Position numbers and translations under genes: made by a program. From Clostridia bacterium (lineage in GTDB: Bacteria > Bacillota > Clostridia > TANB77 > UBA1234), in the NCBI GenBank assembly GCA_017469545.1, contig JAFUGE010000012.1, positions 1-64,000 on the forward strand: a DNA stretch of 64,000 bases. Direction: 5' to 3'. Positions within the stretch are counted from its first letter, which is position 1; each line of letters begins with the position of its first letter. Of this stretch, positions 50,507 to 57,720 are shown piece by piece. Under the pieces are notes generated by a model. It was given only the letters and a program-made list of their open reading frames with translations, did not search any database and was not told the DNA's origin.

Positions 50507-50536
50507 TAATAGAAGTAGACGAGAGGAGTGGATTCA

Positions 50537-51736
50537 TTGAAAAAAGTTGCACTTAGTAACATTATTATCTTATTATGCGTTATTGCCGTTGCTTATATGA
50601 TTTTTCATGATGGCAATCATTATGAAAAATCACAATATGACGAGCCATATGAATTTAAAGATATGATAGATTTTCCTCATAGTGATGTTGCTGAAAGTAA
50701 TGCGAGGTATTACTATGAGCAATTAAATGAAACACAAAAGAAGATATATGATTTGTTGGAAAGAGAGTGTATGAAATACCAATCTTCTATTAAATTAAAC
50801 AAGGCTAATCGTGAGGATGTAAGGGTTGCTTCTTATGCGCTTAGTATGGATTATCCTGAATTCTTTTGGATTGATCAATACACCTATAAAACATTAAATA
50901 ATAATTATGTTGTAGAAATTAATTATGAAGTACCTTACAATGTGAAAGACGTATTAGAAAATATCAATGTTGTAACCAATCAGATTTTTGAAGAAATGAA
51001 TGAGGCAAAAATTGAGAATGATTATGACGAGTTGAAATTTTTCTATGATTGGATTGTGAATCATACCGACTATGGTGATGTAAGAAATTCACAAGATATA
51101 AGAAGCGTCTTTCTTGAGCACACTTCTGTATGTGCTGGCTATTCAAGGGCTTTTCAATATCTGTGTAAGCTTAAAAACATAGAATGCACATATGTAGTGG
51201 GATATACTAAAAATAATGAAAACCATGGATGGAATTTAGTAAAATTATTTGGAAAGTATTATTGGGTTGATGTTACATGGGGAGACCCAGTATTTGCTGG
51301 TGAACAGGATAATGAAATCAATTATAATTTCTTTCTAGTTGATGATGACGAATTATTTCAAAATCATGTGATTGAAAAAGGAATTAAAATGGTATCGGAG
51401 TATCAGAACGCCAAAGAATTCTCTTATCCAAATTGCACAGATAAAAGTTTGAATTATTATCGATTGCATCATAGTTTATTTGAGGAATATGATAAAGACG
51501 CAGTATCACAATACTTTAGAGATAAATTTTATAACAATATTTATAGCGATATTGAATTGAAATTTGAGAATAAAGAAGACTATGATATGTTTTTGCATCA
51601 GTACATTACAGGAAAAAATGCACTTATCTATGAAGATATTAAGGCAGCTAACCGTTTCTTTTTTGGAACAATGCTAGTTGAGTATGTAACAATTGAAAGT
51701 GCCAATTACGTAAAAGTAAGCGTAGAACTAAGATAA
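50537..51736 (+). CDS. Membrane-anchored transglutaminase-like protein
   Basis: 399 residues from a TTG at 50537, which has AGGAG 8 nt upstream; an in-frame GTG at 50528 overlaps that site. An N-terminal helix (about 6-25) suggests membrane anchoring with the rest outside. The transglutaminase core shows a complete triad: Cys in TSVCAGYSRAFQYLC (about 198), His in NHGWNLV (about 230), Asp in WVDVTWGDP (about 245). Relatives are peptidases or amide-forming enzymes, often on cell-wall peptides. It is bracketed exactly by two 60-bp palindromes. Confidence 0.88.
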   Translation: MKKVALSNIIILLCVIAVAYMIFHDGNHYEKSQYDEPYEFKDMIDFPHSDVAESNARYYYEQLNETQKKIYDLLERECMKYQSSIKLNKANREDVRVASYALSMDYPEFFWIDQYTYKTLNNNYVVEINYEVPYNVKDVLENINVVTNQIFEEMNEAKIENDYDELKFFYDWIVNHTDYGDVRNSQDIRSVFLEHTSVCAGYSRAFQYLCKLKNIECTYVVGYTKNNENHGWNLVKLFGKYYWVDVTWGDPVFAGEQDNEINYNFFLVDDDELFQNHVIEKGIKMVSEYQNAKEFSYPNCTDKSLNYYRLHHSLFEEYDKDAVSQYFRDKFYNNIYSDIELKFENKEDYDMFLHQYITGKNALIYEDIKAANRFFFGTMLVEYVTIESANYVKVSVELR

Positions 51737-51813: not shown

Positions 51814-52182
51814 TCATTGCTTTTTCATTTTGGGTTTGGCAATTAAGGCGGCTAGAAAGCCAAAGAGGATGGCTGCGGCTACGCCTCCGGCGGTGGCTTT
51901 GATGCCACCTGTGAATACGCCAAGTAGTCCTACTTCGTCTACTTCTTTCATTACTCCTTTTCCAAGGGAGTAGCCAAAGCCTGTTAGTGGAACGGTTGCG
52001 CCACTTCCCGCTAAGTCGACTAGTGGCTGGTATAAGCCTAAGCCTGTTAGAATGACTCCTACTGTGACAAAAAGTACCAGAATTCTGGCAGAAGTCAATT
52101 TTGTTTTATCGATTAAGATTTGTCCGACGACGCAGATGGCGCCGCCAATGACAAAACACCAAACATATTTCATAATATCCAT
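51814..52182 (-). CDS. spoVAE: Stage V sporulation protein AE
   Basis: 122 residues from the ATG at 52182 (AAGGA about 14 nt upstream; weak spacing, so the start is less certain). Four hydrophobic helices and GSGATVPLTGFGYSLGKGVMKEV, the SpoVAE signature. Part of the channel complex that moves dipicolinic acid into and out of the spore core. Last gene of the operon. Confidence 0.92.
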   Translation of the reverse strand: MDIMKYVWCFVIGGAICVVGQILIDKTKLTSARILVLFVTVGVILTGLGLYQPLVDLAGSGATVPLTGFGYSLGKGVMKEVDEVGLLGVFTGGIKATAGGVAAAILFGFLAALIAKPKMKKQ

Positions 52183-52204
52183 ATTGAAAATATCATTCCT
52201 TCCC

Positions 52205-53221
52205 CTACAAATTTGATTCAATTGATACAGCATGCGCAATCCCACAGATTGATTCTTTTTGCTGTGCTGTGGTTGGGCTCATTAGCGCACCTGTGGCAAT
52301 TAATAATACGCGCTTTAATTTTTTTGCTTGCATTTGATTGAAGATATATCCGCAGAATGTGGAAGCGCAGCAACCGCAGCCACTTCCGCCGGAATGCGTA
52401 TCTTGTTTTTCTTTATCGAAAATTAATACGCCGCAGTCATTGTAGTTATTTTTGATGTTATAGCCACGCGTTTCCATTAGTTCTGTAGTGATTTCTTTTC
52501 CGATATATCCTAAATCTCCCGTTAAGATTAAGTCGTAGTAGTTGGAACTCCTACCAGTATCCTTAAAGTGCATATACATTGTGTCGACTGCCGCTGGTGC
52601 CATTGCTGCGCCCATATTGTTGGCATCTTTGATGCCCATATCTACGATTTTACCAGTCGTAAGGCAAGTAATATATGGGCCATCTCCGTTTTTGGTAAGC
52701 ATAGCACTTCCTGTGCCCATTACAGTCCATTGCGCTGATGGTGGCCTTTGGTTTCCTAATTCTAGCGGAAATCTAAATTGCTTTTCAGCACTGCAAAAAT
52801 GGCTGGATGTGGCACATACGACGTTCGTGGCATAGCCACCATCAATTAGCATTGAGCCTAACGAAAGGCTTTCTGTAAATGTAGAGCACGCACCAAATAA
52901 GCCAAAGAATGGAATACTTGTCTCTCTACTACCAAAGCAGGAGGGAGTACACTGATTTATTAAATCACCAGCTAAAAGATAATCTATATCAGAATTGCTT
53001 AGTTGAACTTTAGCGATGCAATTGCCAATACATTCTTTTACCATTTTTGTTTCGGCCTTTTCCCAAGTGGATTCGCCCCAATATTCGTCGTCTAGAATCG
53101 CATCAAAATATTTTCCAAGCGGACCTTCGCCTTCTTTAGGGCCAACGATAGAGTAAGTCGCCGCAATGGAAGGCGGGTTGACTAGCTTGACGCTTTGTTT
53201 TCCTAATTTTTTCGTTTCCAT
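52205..53221 (-). CDS. spoVAD: Stage V sporulation protein AD
   Basis: 338 residues, thiolase-like fold without the active cysteine arrangement of true ketoacyl synthases. LVNPPSIAATYSIVGPKEGEGPLG and GLFGACSTFTESLSLG are typical. In Bacillus this protein binds dipicolinic acid. I chose the second ATG (53221), 8 nt from AAAGGAT; an ATG at 53227 is too close. A cysteine-rich GSGCGCCASTFCG segment (about 290) is characteristic. Confidence 0.95.
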   Translation of the reverse strand: METKKLGKQSVKLVNPPSIAATYSIVGPKEGEGPLGKYFDAILDDEYWGESTWEKAETKMVKECIGNCIAKVQLSNSDIDYLLAGDLINQCTPSCFGSRETSIPFFGLFGACSTFTESLSLGSMLIDGGYATNVVCATSSHFCSAEKQFRFPLELGNQRPPSAQWTVMGTGSAMLTKNGDGPYITCLTTGKIVDMGIKDANNMGAAMAPAAVDTMYMHFKDTGRSSNYYDLILTGDLGYIGKEITTELMETRGYNIKNNYNDCGVLIFDKEKQDTHSGGSGCGCCASTFCGYIFNQMQAKKLKRVLLIATGALMSPTTAQQKESICGIAHAVSIESNL

Positions 53222-53273
53222 TTTCATATCCTTTCTAAATGATAATAATTGTCAAATTATTTTTCAAACCCAT

Positions 53274-53720
53274 TTATTTTAATAGATAGTATATAAGTCC
53301 CACTGCAATGGACGTGCTAATTCCGTATACTAGCACAGGGCCTGCTACTTGGAACAGTTTGGCGCCTACGCCAAGGACTAATCCTTCACTTTTAAATTCA
53401 ATGGCAGGCGAGGCAATGGAATTGGCAAAACCTGTAATTGGCACGATGGAGCCAGCTCCTGCAAATTTACCGATACGGTTATATACATTAATTGCTGTCA
53501 AGAAAATGCCTATAAAAACAAGTGTAATACTTGTGACAGAAGATGCAGTATCTTTGTCTAGGCCGACTCCCGTGGTTAGGTAATCCATAATGAATTGGCC
53601 CATTAAACAAATGGCTCCGCCTACAATAAATGCCTTGAATAAATTCCCCCAAATAGGCGAGTTTGGCGTTTTTTCGTCAACATATTTTTGATAATCTGCT
53701 TTCGTTTCAATTGCTTTCAT
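53274..53720 (-). CDS. spoVAC: Stage V sporulation protein AC
   Basis: 148 residues from the ATG at 53720 (AAAGGAG 9 nt upstream). About four or five helices and GAGSIVPITGFANSIASPAIEFKSEG, the motif shared with SpoVAE. In Bacillus SpoVAC is a mechanosensitive channel of the dipicolinic acid complex. One nt separates it from the dodecin-like gene upstream. Confidence 0.95.
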   Translation of the reverse strand: MKAIETKADYQKYVDEKTPNSPIWGNLFKAFIVGGAICLMGQFIMDYLTTGVGLDKDTASSVTSITLVFIGIFLTAINVYNRIGKFAGAGSIVPITGFANSIASPAIEFKSEGLVLGVGAKLFQVAGPVLVYGISTSIAVGLIYYLLK

Positions 53721-53721
53721 T

Positions 53722-53940
53722 CTATTGCTCCTTTCTTTCTGTATCAATTTTGAATGAAATCTTTGTATCTGCAATGTATTCGCGTATTTGATTGTCAGAA
53801 ATATTGCAAGATAGCGATACTACTTCCAATTTAAAAATATGGTCGATGGTTCTGCTAGTTTCGGCGAATGCTACTCGGATAGCGTCGTCGAAAGATATAT
53901 TTGATACTCCTTGAATACATAACGTTTTTGTAACAGCCAT
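53722..53940 (-). CDS. Dodecin-like small protein leading the spoVA operon
   Basis: 72 residues: MAVTKTLCIQGVSNISFDDAIR..., continuing with a helix and strands ending TKISFKID. The pattern V-G-S-x-x-S-F-D/E-D-A-I-R-x-A-x-x-x-A-S-x-T-I and a final I-S-F strand is that of dodecins, flavin-storing dodecamers. The tryptophan that stacks on flavin in studied dodecins is absent, so flavin binding is open. SD GGAGGTG. It is the first gene before spoVAC, spoVAD and spoVAE, with a sigma-G-like promoter upstream. Confidence 0.8.
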   Translation of the reverse strand: MAVTKTLCIQGVSNISFDDAIRVAFAETSRTIDHIFKLEVVSLSCNISDNQIREYIADTKISFKIDTERKEQ

Positions 53941-53961
53941 AAAAACACCTCCGTTTAAAGG

Positions 53962-53991
53962 TATTTTTAACGAATTTACAAAAAGTATGCA
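53962..53991 (-). promoter_or_regulatory. Sigma-G-like promoter of the dodecin-spoVA operon
   Basis: On the minus strand: TGCATA, a 17-nt spacer and AAAAATA. The -35 fits TGNATA; the -10 is weaker (four of seven against CATACTA) but resembles the box before gerA. Confidence 0.4.
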
Positions 53992-54022: not shown

Positions 54023-55843
54023 ATGTTTAATATTCCAGAAGAATTGAAGAAGCTGCCAGAAAAGCCTGGCGTGTATATTATGAAAGACAAAGAGGATAAT
54101 ATTCTTTACGTTGGTAAAGCAGTTGTCCTTAAAAATCGTGTGCGCCAATATTTTCAAAAAACAAATAAAACAGAGCGCATTAAGAAAATGGTTTCGCAAA
54201 TTGACCATTTCGAATATATTGTTGTGGATTCGGAGATGGAGGCGTTGATCTTAGAGTGCAATCTGATTAAATTGCATCGCCCGAAGTATAATGTTTTGCT
54301 AAAAGACGATAAGATGTATCCGTATATCAAAATTACGCTGAATGAGGATTATCCAACGCTTCGCATTGTGAGGAAAAAGTTCAATGATGGGGCGAAATAT
54401 TACGGGCCATACACGAATGCCTATGCGGCGCGCGAGACGGTAGACTATTTGAATAAAATATATTCTTTGAAGCAATGCCGTAAAATATTCAAAGATGGCA
54501 AGAGAGAGACGCCTTGTTTGAATTATCACATCAAGAAGTGCATGGGAATTTGCACGGGGAATGTTTCGAAAGAGGAGTATCGAAAAGTGATTCAGCAAGT
54601 AATGGCGGTTTTGGATGGCAAGTCGGAGGAGCTATTAAAGCAGATTAAAAGTGAGATGGAAGAGGCTTCGCAGAATTTGAATTTTGAAAAGGCGGCCACG
54701 CTCCGCGATAAAATGAACAGCATTCAAAATTTGATGCAAAAGCAGAAAATCGATATTTATACGGAAAATGATTTGGATGTTATTGGTATTGTGAAACACT
54801 TAGACAGGGCTTCGATTGAAGTCTTTAACATTCGCAATAGTAGAATGATTGGCGGCGAGAATTTCTTGCTAAAAGAGGTGGGAGAAGAGCCTGAAGAGGA
54901 GCTGGTTGCCACGTTTATCAAGCAGTATTATACGGGCGATAATGTGCCGAGTAAGATTATGTTTAAGCAGGAATTGCCAGAGCAGGAGTTAATTAGAGAG
55001 TGGTTACTAGCAACAAGTGGCCGAAAGAGTATCGAGTTTAAGATACCGAAGAAAGGCGAAAAGCTGAAGCTGATTGAGATGGCGGAGCAGAATGCAACGA
55101 TTGCCATTAAAAATAAAACGGACGCTTTGGAGAATGAGAGTATTTTGCTGGAATTGATGGAAGTGCTAAATTTAGAAAAATTGCCAAAGCGCATTGAGAG
55201 CTATGATATTTCGAATATTTCAGGCACGGATACGGTTGCGGGCATGGTTGTTTTTGAGAATGGAAAGCCAAAGCGAAGTGACTATCGAAGACTGAAAATT
55301 AAGACGGTTGAGGGACAAAACGATGTGGCTTGTATGAAAGAGGCACTTACGAGAAGATTAAAATATGTGGTGGATAAGACGCTAGAGAAAAATCCTTTTG
55401 GGCCTGCGCCAGACCTTATCTTGATGGATGGCGGTATTACGCAAATCAGGGCGGCGCAAGAGATTAATGATTTTTATGGCTTATCCATTCCGATATATGG
55501 AATGGTAAAAAACGATAAGCATAGAACGAGGGCCTTGATGGATATTGACGGAAGAGAAATTTCGATTGCAGGAAGAGCGCAATTATTCAATTTTGTGACC
55601 TTTTTGCAGGACGAAGTGCACAATACAGCGATAGAATACCATCGAAAATTAAGGGAGAAGAATATTCGTAAGTCGGCATTGGACGAAGTAGAGGGCATTG
55701 GCGAGAAGAAGAAACAGGCGTTATTAAAGCATTTTAAGAGTGTGGAAAAGATAAAAGAGGCAAGTATCGAAGAACTATGCGAGGTAGACGGGATTTCGGA
55801 GAAAATTGCTCAAAAAATCAAAGAGACTCTTTTGTCGTCATAG
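54023..55843 (+). CDS. uvrC: Excinuclease ABC subunit C
   Basis: 606 residues. Makes both incisions in nucleotide excision repair. N-terminal GIY-YIG nuclease (KPGVYIMKDKEDNILYVGKA, about 12-31), a cysteine cluster CLNYHIKKCMGICTG, UVR domain (about 200-235), RNase H-like C-terminal nuclease (ESYDISNISGTDTVAGMVVFENG, LILMDGG) and tandem helix-hairpin-helix at the end. Start ATG at 54023, 6 nt from GGTGAT. UvrA and UvrB are not in the window. Confidence 0.97.
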   Translation: MFNIPEELKKLPEKPGVYIMKDKEDNILYVGKAVVLKNRVRQYFQKTNKTERIKKMVSQIDHFEYIVVDSEMEALILECNLIKLHRPKYNVLLKDDKMYPYIKITLNEDYPTLRIVRKKFNDGAKYYGPYTNAYAARETVDYLNKIYSLKQCRKIFKDGKRETPCLNYHIKKCMGICTGNVSKEEYRKVIQQVMAVLDGKSEELLKQIKSEMEEASQNLNFEKAATLRDKMNSIQNLMQKQKIDIYTENDLDVIGIVKHLDRASIEVFNIRNSRMIGGENFLLKEVGEEPEEELVATFIKQYYTGDNVPSKIMFKQELPEQELIREWLLATSGRKSIEFKIPKKGEKLKLIEMAEQNATIAIKNKTDALENESILLELMEVLNLEKLPKRIESYDISNISGTDTVAGMVVFENGKPKRSDYRRLKIKTVEGQNDVACMKEALTRRLKYVVDKTLEKNPFGPAPDLILMDGGITQIRAAQEINDFYGLSIPIYGMVKNDKHRTRALMDIDGREISIAGRAQLFNFVTFLQDEVHNTAIEYHRKLREKNIRKSALDEVEGIGEKKKQALLKHFKSVEKIKEASIEELCEVDGISEKIAQKIKETLLSS

Positions 55844-56438: not shown

Positions 56439-56473
56439 AAAAGGATAATGCGAATTTTGCATTATCCTTTTTT
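56439..56473. terminator. Terminator between the PIN gene and ylbJ
   Basis: Perfect stem AAAAGGATAATGC/GCATTATCCTTTT with a 7-nt loop and T-tract; A- and T-rich on both sides, so it may serve both convergent genes. It reaches into the last codons of ylbJ. Confidence 0.88.
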
Positions 56474-57703
56474 CGTTGTGTGGAAGAGTTGAAGGCCGAT
56501 TCCGGTGAGACAGAGGGTTGTTACTACGATTAGTAGTAGATTACTGCTGCTTGCAGCGGGGTAAGGCGTGGTGAAATGGTAGCTGAATGTTTCTACGACG
56601 TCCCAATTGAAAAATGTAGTGTATTTCATAAGCAAATAGGCGGAGACACTGGCGAAAATGCCGTGCAGCAATTTGGCGAATAAGTAAGGCTTTAGAGACA
56701 AATCGGTATCGGCAATGATACTTGCTGTTTGCATATGAACAGAAAATCCGCCAAAACCAAGCACAAAAGCAACTACGGATAAGAGCTTGAGATAGCTAAT
56801 GTTTTTAAGGGAAGAGAGTGCTTTTACGCCGCTGGTTACTTCTAAAATGCCTCTGGCAATACCATTTGACGCATCTAAAGGAACGTCAAAGAGCTTTAAA
56901 AATCTTTCAATCATGATTTGGAAAAAGTGCATGATTCCTGTGTTTTGGAGGATATCTCCTAATACTGCAAAGAACACAATATACCCACAAATGAGTAGCA
57001 ATGTATTAATAGCACTTTTAATCGATTCGCCCATCATTGCGCCTAAATTTCTGAGGCTAAATGAGGCGTTGTTATTGTAAACTTCAGGCTTTTGTGCTAC
57101 AATATCCGTATGAGAGCTATTTGCCTTATAATTACGGAAAATAACTCCGACCAGGAGGGCACTAAAAAAGTGGGTAAGTAGGAGCATCAGCCCTATTTTA
57201 GCGTCGCCAAACATACCAATCCCCACGGCACCAACGATAAAAATTGGACCAGAGGTATTGGTAAAGGAAAGCAACCTTTCGGCCTCTACTTTGGAGCACA
57301 GTTTTTCTTCGCGAAGACTAGCTACAATTTTAGATCCGACAGGATAGCCGGAGCTCATTCCCATTGCTAGCGCGAACGCACCACAGCCGGGAACATTAAA
57401 CACAGGACGCATTATTTTTTCGAGTAGTTTGCCAATGATTTGCATGAAATTCGTTCTTTTCATTAGCTCGATACCAATTAAAAATGGCAAAAGTGATGGC
57501 ACAACGTTATTTACCCATAGCATAAAACCTGTGTGAGCGCTTTCAAATGACGATTTAGAAAAAATTACGAGCAAAATGAGAAAGCAAAAAATGAGCATTG
57601 GCATTAGATAGCGTTTGAGTTTTACGACTTTCATTTCTACTTTGGAGCTCGGCAGCGTAATAAATATGATGCATAAAATCAAAAATAACAAAAGATAAAT
57701 CAA
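56462..57703 (-). CDS. ylbJ: Sporulation integral membrane protein YlbJ
   Basis: 413 residues from a TTG at 57703 (AGGT 7 nt upstream; a GTG at 57712 in frame overlaps that site). About eight membrane helices of the nucleoside-recognition/gate family: WVNNVVPSLLPFLIGIELM, AMGMSSGYPVGSKIVASLREEKLCSKVEAERLLSFTNTSGPIFIVG and its repeat near the C-terminus. In Bacillus YlbJ is needed for heat-resistant spores and is made in the mother cell. The promoter at 57721 fits that. Confidence 0.92.
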   Translation of the reverse strand: MIYLLLFLILCIIFITLPSSKVEMKVVKLKRYLMPMLIFCFLILLVIFSKSSFESAHTGFMLWVNNVVPSLLPFLIGIELMKRTNFMQIIGKLLEKIMRPVFNVPGCGAFALAMGMSSGYPVGSKIVASLREEKLCSKVEAERLLSFTNTSGPIFIVGAVGIGMFGDAKIGLMLLLTHFFSALLVGVIFRNYKANSSHTDIVAQKPEVYNNNASFSLRNLGAMMGESIKSAINTLLLICGYIVFFAVLGDILQNTGIMHFFQIMIERFLKLFDVPLDASNGIARGILEVTSGVKALSSLKNISYLKLLSVVAFVLGFGGFSVHMQTASIIADTDLSLKPYLFAKLLHGIFASVSAYLLMKYTTFFNWDVVETFSYHFTTPYPAASSSNLLLIVVTTLCLTGIGLQLFHTTKKG

Positions 57704-57720
57704 GAGTATCACCTAATTAA

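Follow-up and report, generated by a model that had tools for sequence, protein, structure and literature searches.

A dodecin-like gene lacking the flavin-binding residues precedes spoVAC across much of the Bacillota and is likely to have a forespore or spore role

What does a dodecin do at the head of a spoVA operon? The question is raised by a 64,000-nucleotide stretch of Clostridia DNA, referred to here as the window, in which a dodecin-like ORF lies immediately before spoVAC. A first-pass annotation had described a 72-aa dodecin-like protein encoded by the first gene of the spoVA operon, 1 nt before spoVAC, and both the coordinates and the profile match agree with this description. The Pfam Dodecin profile PF07311 is matched over its full length (positions 1-64 of 64; E value 2e-15; 57.3 bits, curated cut-off 22.5), which places the protein in the dodecin superfamily, and no profile placement outside the dodecins was seen. 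The ORF misses the cut-offs of the NCBIfam dodecin equivalogs (NF043052, 37.8 versus 75; NF041389, 35.5 versus 100). The TAG stop codon of the dodecin gene occupies positions 53724-53722 and the ATG of spoVAC begins at 53720. spoVAC has its Shine-Dalgarno sequence within the 3' end of the dodecin gene, which suggests that translation of the two genes is coupled. The genes, previously described as "fused in operon to spoVAC-AD-AE", do share an operon, and no gene fusion is present. Likewise, the interval 53722-53991 assigned to the feature contains the gene, which ends at 53940, and its remainder is the upstream promoter region.

Downstream of the dodecin gene, spoVAC, spoVAD and spoVAE are ordered on one strand and all three exceed the cut-offs of their TIGRFAM equivalogs, making this a spoVA operon of the C-D-E type (Table 1). 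A ylbJ/spoVV homologue is found in a separate operon close by, so that both steps of dipicolinic acid (DPA) transport are encoded near each other; SpoVV, formerly YlbJ, is described as the DPA transporter of the outer forespore membrane in B. subtilis (PMC5629000). The uvrC gene runs in the opposite direction, with a start probably at 54023. A transglutaminase-like gene (50528-51736, plus strand, PF01841) is convergent with the end of the spoVA operon, and a T-box leader scoring over the Rfam gathering score is located at 503-724 on the plus strand of the window. The genome measures 1.24 Mb, is 99.6% complete, and a single dodecin was detected in it. Within the window's family, the dodecin gene shows dN/dS values of about 0.13-0.35 (NG86; dS was usable in 7 of 15 pairs, the remaining pairs being saturated), which points to purifying selection.

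Table 1. Features of the dodecin-spoVA locus and its surroundings, in window coordinates.
Feature	Position	Strand	Evidence
Putative forespore (sigma-F/G type) promoter, GCATA-N15-TTAAAAATA	53962..53990	minus	Degenerate copy of order-wide motif
RBS GGAGG of dodecin gene, 7 nt before ATG	53948..53952	minus	Read in sequence
Dodecin-fold gene, 72 aa, ATG start	53722..53940	minus	PF07311 match and AlphaFold2 model
AAGGAG serving spoVAC, within 3' end of dodecin gene	53728..53733	minus	Sequence
spoVAC	53274..53720	minus	TIGR02838, 177.3 bits (cut-off 164)
spoVAD	52205..53227	minus	TIGR02845, 476.5 bits (cut-off 411.8)
spoVAE (AEb type), start approximate	about 51814..52185	minus	TIGR02839, 153.9 bits (cut-off 131.1)
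ylbJ/spoVV homologue, about 2.5 kb from dodecin-spoVA operon, separate operon	56462..57712	minus	TIGR02871, 330.1 bits (cut-off 304.65)

We examined the conservation of this gene order, a check proposed with the first-pass annotation, at two taxonomic ranks, and it held at both. Within the window's order, 111 of the 191 sampled genomes carry a dodecin, one copy each. All 111 loci were taken, and in 110 of them the dodecin lies directly upstream of spoVAC on the same strand; the sole exception (L274) is truncated where its contig stops. The median gap to spoVAC is 15 nt among the 103 of 111 loci in which it could be called. In one locus (L339, genome G156) the dodecin is split into two overlapping ORFs, reflecting either a frameshift or an assembly error. 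A match to the SpoVAC/SpoVAE family was found in 179 of the 191 genomes, and a dodecin in none of the 12 genomes lacking such a match. Conversely, 68 of the 179 SpoVAC-family genomes keep spoVA without a dodecin. Other orders of the same class seldom carry the gene: in a class-wide sample of 391 genomes it was present in only 18, eight of them from outside the window's order, and one of these eight is spoVA-linked. B. subtilis, taken as a control genome, gave no dodecin match.

A sample of 398 genomes from the phylum, which we take to be Bacillota, revealed a dodecin in 217, SpoVAD over its cut-off in 337, and both in 214. We examined 110 loci from 109 of the 217 genomes, comprising the 30 best-scoring ones and 80 picked among the matches listed before the SpoVAD results were known, the lowest-scoring matches being left out. 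In 87 of these 110 loci the dodecin is again directly upstream of spoVAC on the same strand, and a local or lineage-specific oddity was therefore rejected as an explanation. A sigF-like gene is present in the retrieved stretch of 74 of the 87 linked loci, and stands at most 400 nt upstream in 62; the call rests on a phmmer E value of 1e-20 and may count in other sigma factors. Four of these genes were scanned with the SigF equivalog (cut-off 321 bits), which two passed (L239 and L264) and two did not (L091, 193 bits; L227, 284 bits). The recurrence of the order sigF-dodecin-spoVAC-AD makes the arrangement look old. Among the 23 non-linked loci, 17 have a sigF-like, spoVAD, spoVAEa or GerA/SpoVAF-type gene in the retrieved stretch, a proportion for which the chance level was not computed, and the other six show none of the sporulation genes sought (sigF-like, SpoVAD, SpoVAEa, GerA/SpoVAF-type). 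In loci L083 and L225 the dodecin adjoins a gene of the membrane dipeptidase family (Peptidase M19), accompanied in L083 by a GerA-family gene.

Across the 398 phylum genomes, dodecin and SpoVAD co-occur in 214, dodecin is found alone in 3, SpoVAD alone in 123 and neither in 58, with four SpoVAD matches under the cut-off scored as absent; the Fisher value of 3.6e-19 is overstated because related genomes are treated as independent. The dodecin is dispensable for SpoVA as such, being missing from 123 of the 337 SpoVAD-bearing genomes.

Upstream regions were obtained for 106 of the 111 order loci and for 84 of the 110 phylum loci, only the linked ones having been tried in the latter sample. A loose sigma-G pattern, set after reading the upstream region of the window and before reading the others, is present in 88 of the 106 order regions, compared with 3.6 in shuffled sequences and 10 on the reverse strand. 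A refined motif, consisting of G[TC]ATA, 14-15 nt and GGAAA..AT and shaped after reading about 20 regions, precedes the dodecin in 78 of 106, with 0.84 in shuffles and 0 on the reverse strand. The strict sigma-G pattern was seen in 1 of the 106 order regions, against 1.14 expected. The phylum regions show the refined motif only weakly (7 of 84 versus 0.74), and the strict and loose sigma-G patterns occur in 11 (versus 0.3) and 32 (versus 1.48) of 84, respectively; all shuffles were first-order resamplings, 50 each. The window's own element, GCATA-N15-TTAAAAATA, fits only the looser pattern C and not the refined motif. These motifs suggest that the dodecin is expressed in the forespore. In order genomes without a dodecin, the refined pattern precedes spoVAC in 5 of 18 loci and the looser pattern C in 9 of 18; the 18 loci come from 16 genomes (G004 and G025 each twice), one has just 2 upstream bases and some starts appear miscalled. 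This placement would fit a dodecin gained or lost between promoter and spoVAC. As to the sigma factors of the window's own genome, the best match to the sigma-G model (C5:155830-156519) reaches 221 bits for a cut-off of 457, and the next one 122. This 1.24 Mb genome perhaps has a single forespore-type sigma factor.

An AlphaFold2 model of the monomer, built with 103 sequences (pLDDT 92.5, pTM 0.78), predicts the β-α-β-β fold of dodecins. The best 29 Foldseek rows and the best 18 VIA rows against the PDB are all dodecins, and no convincing non-dodecin match was found by Foldseek or VIA-align. The ten best VIA rows have Z scores of 11.3-12.2 and rmsd values of 0.9-1.2 over 66-68 residues, at 21-27% identity. 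The flavin dodecins of Halobacterium salinarum, T. thermophilus (TTHA1431) and M. tuberculosis (Rv1498A), all PF07311 members, resemble the window protein in fold and length. They possess Trp38 and Gln57 (residues are numbered as in the Thermus dodecin), whereas both are lost in the window copy, whose gene sits in a sporulation cluster. The calcium dodecin Rv0379 of M. tuberculosis (SecE2, PDB 3ONR; Z 10.9 and rmsd 2.0 to the window model) also lacks the flavin Trp and Gln, which are replaced by Val and Arg. It shares a Ser-Trp pair at the start of the helix with most spoVA-linked copies, whereas the window's own copy has Ser-Phe; Trp occupies this helix position in 84 of the 87 phylum-linked copies and in 104 of the 111 order ORFs.

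In flavin-binding dodecins the Trp stacks on the isoalloxazine ring and the Gln hydrogen-bonds the flavin. The window protein has Lys38 and Ile57 at these sites and, judged by both residues, would not be a flavin-binding dodecin. The first-pass annotation had rightly pointed out the missing Trp, and this loss is general: Trp is found in 0 of 87 phylum-linked copies, in 0 of 17 linked copies of the named set described below and in none of the order-linked copies. The Gln is likewise absent from every spoVA-linked copy examined, being replaced wherever the residue aligned. Classical flavin storage, one of the roles first proposed for the gene, is thus unlikely and was set aside as the main reading. 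Of the 87 phylum-linked copies, G38 is kept in 87, E40 in 85, N43 in 83, T45 in 86 and K57 in 85 (Arg in the other two), and residue 65 is variable. The same five residues are present in 8, 6, 6, 9 and 0 of the 111 order ORFs, respectively. Position 38 is mixed in the order, and never Trp; position 45 is Arg in 76 and Lys in 12 of the 111 ORFs, and Ser in the window. Position 57 is Phe in 56, Tyr in 40, Ile in 6, Leu in 5, Met in 2, Val in 1 and a gap in 1. With the ligand site changing in this way from the phylum-linked copies to those of the order, a single common ligand is doubtful, and the ligand may differ.

We then looked at relatives beyond the spoVA loci. A scan with a Trp-less query, keeping one genome per species, returned 80 named loci, of which 17 are spoVA-linked and 63 are not; the scan favors sequences of the query type, and it includes some short contigs. 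All 17 linked loci are titled Bacillota, Firmicutes or Clostridia. The 63 unlinked loci belong to Bacillota, archaea, Verrucomicrobia, Planctomycetes, Chloroflexi, Flavobacteriaceae and others. Dodecins without the flavin Trp therefore exist in groups not known for spores (Bathyarchaeota, Thorarchaeota, Verrucomicrobia and Flavobacteriaceae), which indicates that the activity of these proteins is not spore-specific. In a tree of 118 rows, whose details are weak because it rests on 66 columns only, a branch with an SH-aLRT support of 98% sets the linked rows, 66 in all, and 25 unlinked ones from their phylum apart from the remainder. This remainder consists of the archaeal rows, the rows of other bacteria, four flavin dodecins and seven more rows of the phylum that are unlinked. 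Linkage to spoVA requires at least 14 changes on this tree, with a mean of 38.8 when shuffled.

A forespore or spore role of the dodecin is likely in view of the gene order, the promoter motif and the co-occurrence with SpoVAD. The first-pass annotation had suggested a forespore role such as flavin storage or protein packing; the compartment is favored indirectly by these observations and by the sigF-like neighbours, flavin storage in it is not, and on packing the observations lean neither way. SpoVA proteins C, D and Eb are thought to carry DPA across the inner spore membrane, and SpoVAD is described as a cytoplasmic plug (PMC13059800). Small-molecule handling in the core during loading would thus be the most economical role. 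Transcription of the gene for this protein, which we name spo-dodecin, would start in the forespore at a sigma-F/G-type promoter, and its translation would be coupled to that of the SpoVA DPA transporter genes. Inside the spore core, the chains of spo-dodecin would probably assemble into a shell of 12 subunits, as is usual for dodecins. With Trp and Gln gone, this shell would not stack flavin in the known way, and would act as a core-side small-molecule binder while SpoVA loads the spore with DPA. It may buffer or sense some small ligand connected with DPA loading, or it may dock on the C/D/Eb complex and assist it without being essential. We give this reading, a non-flavin dodecin shell made in the forespore that handles a small ligand during DPA loading, about an even chance of being right. 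DPA itself, put forward speculatively as the ligand in the first-pass annotation, may conceivably be buffered, sensed or involved in docking in this way. A bulk store of DPA is implausible by quantity and was rejected, as DPA is reported to make up 10-15% of spore dry weight (PMC13059800).

Several observations weigh against the small-ligand reading. The dodecin is missing from the 123 SpoVAD genomes of the phylum, the 68 SpoVAC-family genomes of the order and B. subtilis mentioned above, and from most genomes of the class-wide sample. Trp-less homologues also turn up in groups not known for spores, the phylum and the window's order carry different residues in the ligand site, and in 6 of the 23 unlinked phylum loci no sporulation gene of those sought was seen. 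DPA synthesis in the window's family also counts against it. The window's own genome encodes Spo0A (381.7 bits), gave no match to the DpaB model and only 20.3 bits with the DpaA model. None of the 13 genomes of the family exceeds this DpaA score, and six of them carry the dodecin; 11 of 11 genomes from other families of the order reach 175-237 bits, which is also under the cut-off of 319.65. A bolder version is more tentative, and we regard it as possible and rather more doubtful than the small-ligand reading itself. It holds that the DPA machinery of endospores contains a component so far overlooked, of old standing in Bacillota and encoded between sigF and spoVAC: a dodecin shell that would have exchanged flavin for a DPA-related ligand (Ca2+, DPA or Ca-DPA) or would have been turned to the control of SpoVA.

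Could the dodecin instead be a subunit of the SpoVA channel itself, attached on the cytoplasmic face to SpoVAC or SpoVAD, where it would tune gating? A locus-specific SpoVA partner is on record in NJ2 of the B. anthracis spoVA2 locus (PMC13059800). Like NJ2, SpoVAEa and SpoVAF, the dodecin is lineage-specific and encoded beside the C-D-Eb core. NJ2, a lipoprotein, sits on the extracytoplasmic face, whereas the dodecin is a small soluble fold that would lie in the core, so its role would be like that of NJ2 on the other face. This idea is favored by the position of the gene, by its probable translational coupling with spoVAC, by the description of SpoVAD as a plug and by co-inheritance: dodecin and SpoVAC distances are correlated with a Mantel r of 0.77 (n = 198; 0.80 in the order, 0.50 in the phylum), the best of 999 permutations reaching 0.06. 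The co-inheritance and the NJ2 precedent favor the small-ligand reading as well. Against a subunit role, about one third of SpoVAD genomes manage without a dodecin, and its other neighbour, within 400 nt, is a sigF-like gene in most phylum-linked loci. Nor does the dodecin swap with SpoVAEa, found in 59 of 214 genomes with and 39 of 123 without it (p = 0.46); this lack of anti-correlation also led us to reject the dodecin as a replacement of SpoVAEa. Overall, we judge a direct channel subunit unlikely.

Somewhat less probable still is a cofactor store that supplies germination with FMN (or CoA) retained through dormancy, a function which dodecins are known to serve in growing cells. The fold and the family are those of cofactor-storing dodecins, and the T. 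thermophilus protein is reportedly called a bifunctional cofactor storage protein in the title of a paper cited by PMC7414021. The loss of the flavin Trp and Gln from the linked copies speaks against it, as do the unmatched NCBIfam equivalogs. According to their titles, PDB entries of the T. thermophilus dodecin carry mutations at Arg45 and Arg65. These two residues, which we take to contact CoA in that protein, are likewise not conserved among the phylum-linked copies, and the window lacks Arg45, although Arg or Lys does occur at position 45 in the order.

A housekeeping dodecin that came to lie in the spoIIA-spoVA cluster by history, with no tie to DPA or spores, would account for family members outside spore-formers, for the Bacillota copies located elsewhere and for the order genomes that retain spoVA alone. 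It would not account for the forespore-type motif ahead of the dodecin, the near-invariant gene order within the order or the near absence of the dodecin from SpoVAD-less genomes, and we consider it improbable. Equally improbable is an abundant heat-stable shell that has no specific ligand and serves to pack the dehydrated core or keep it stable: dodecins are described as very heat-stable (PMC7414021) and their ligand-site residues vary between lineages here, but the strong conservation of G38, E40, N43, T45 and K57 in the phylum-linked set argues for a specific contact there.

The titles and abstract openings of the open-licence literature yielded no link between dodecins and spores, and reports may exist elsewhere. 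A small soluble protein is encoded beside spoVAC across a large part of the Bacillota, and because B. subtilis has no match to it, the model organism cannot reveal it. The spoVA-linked copies mark a branch of the dodecins for which "flavin-binding" is a doubtful label.
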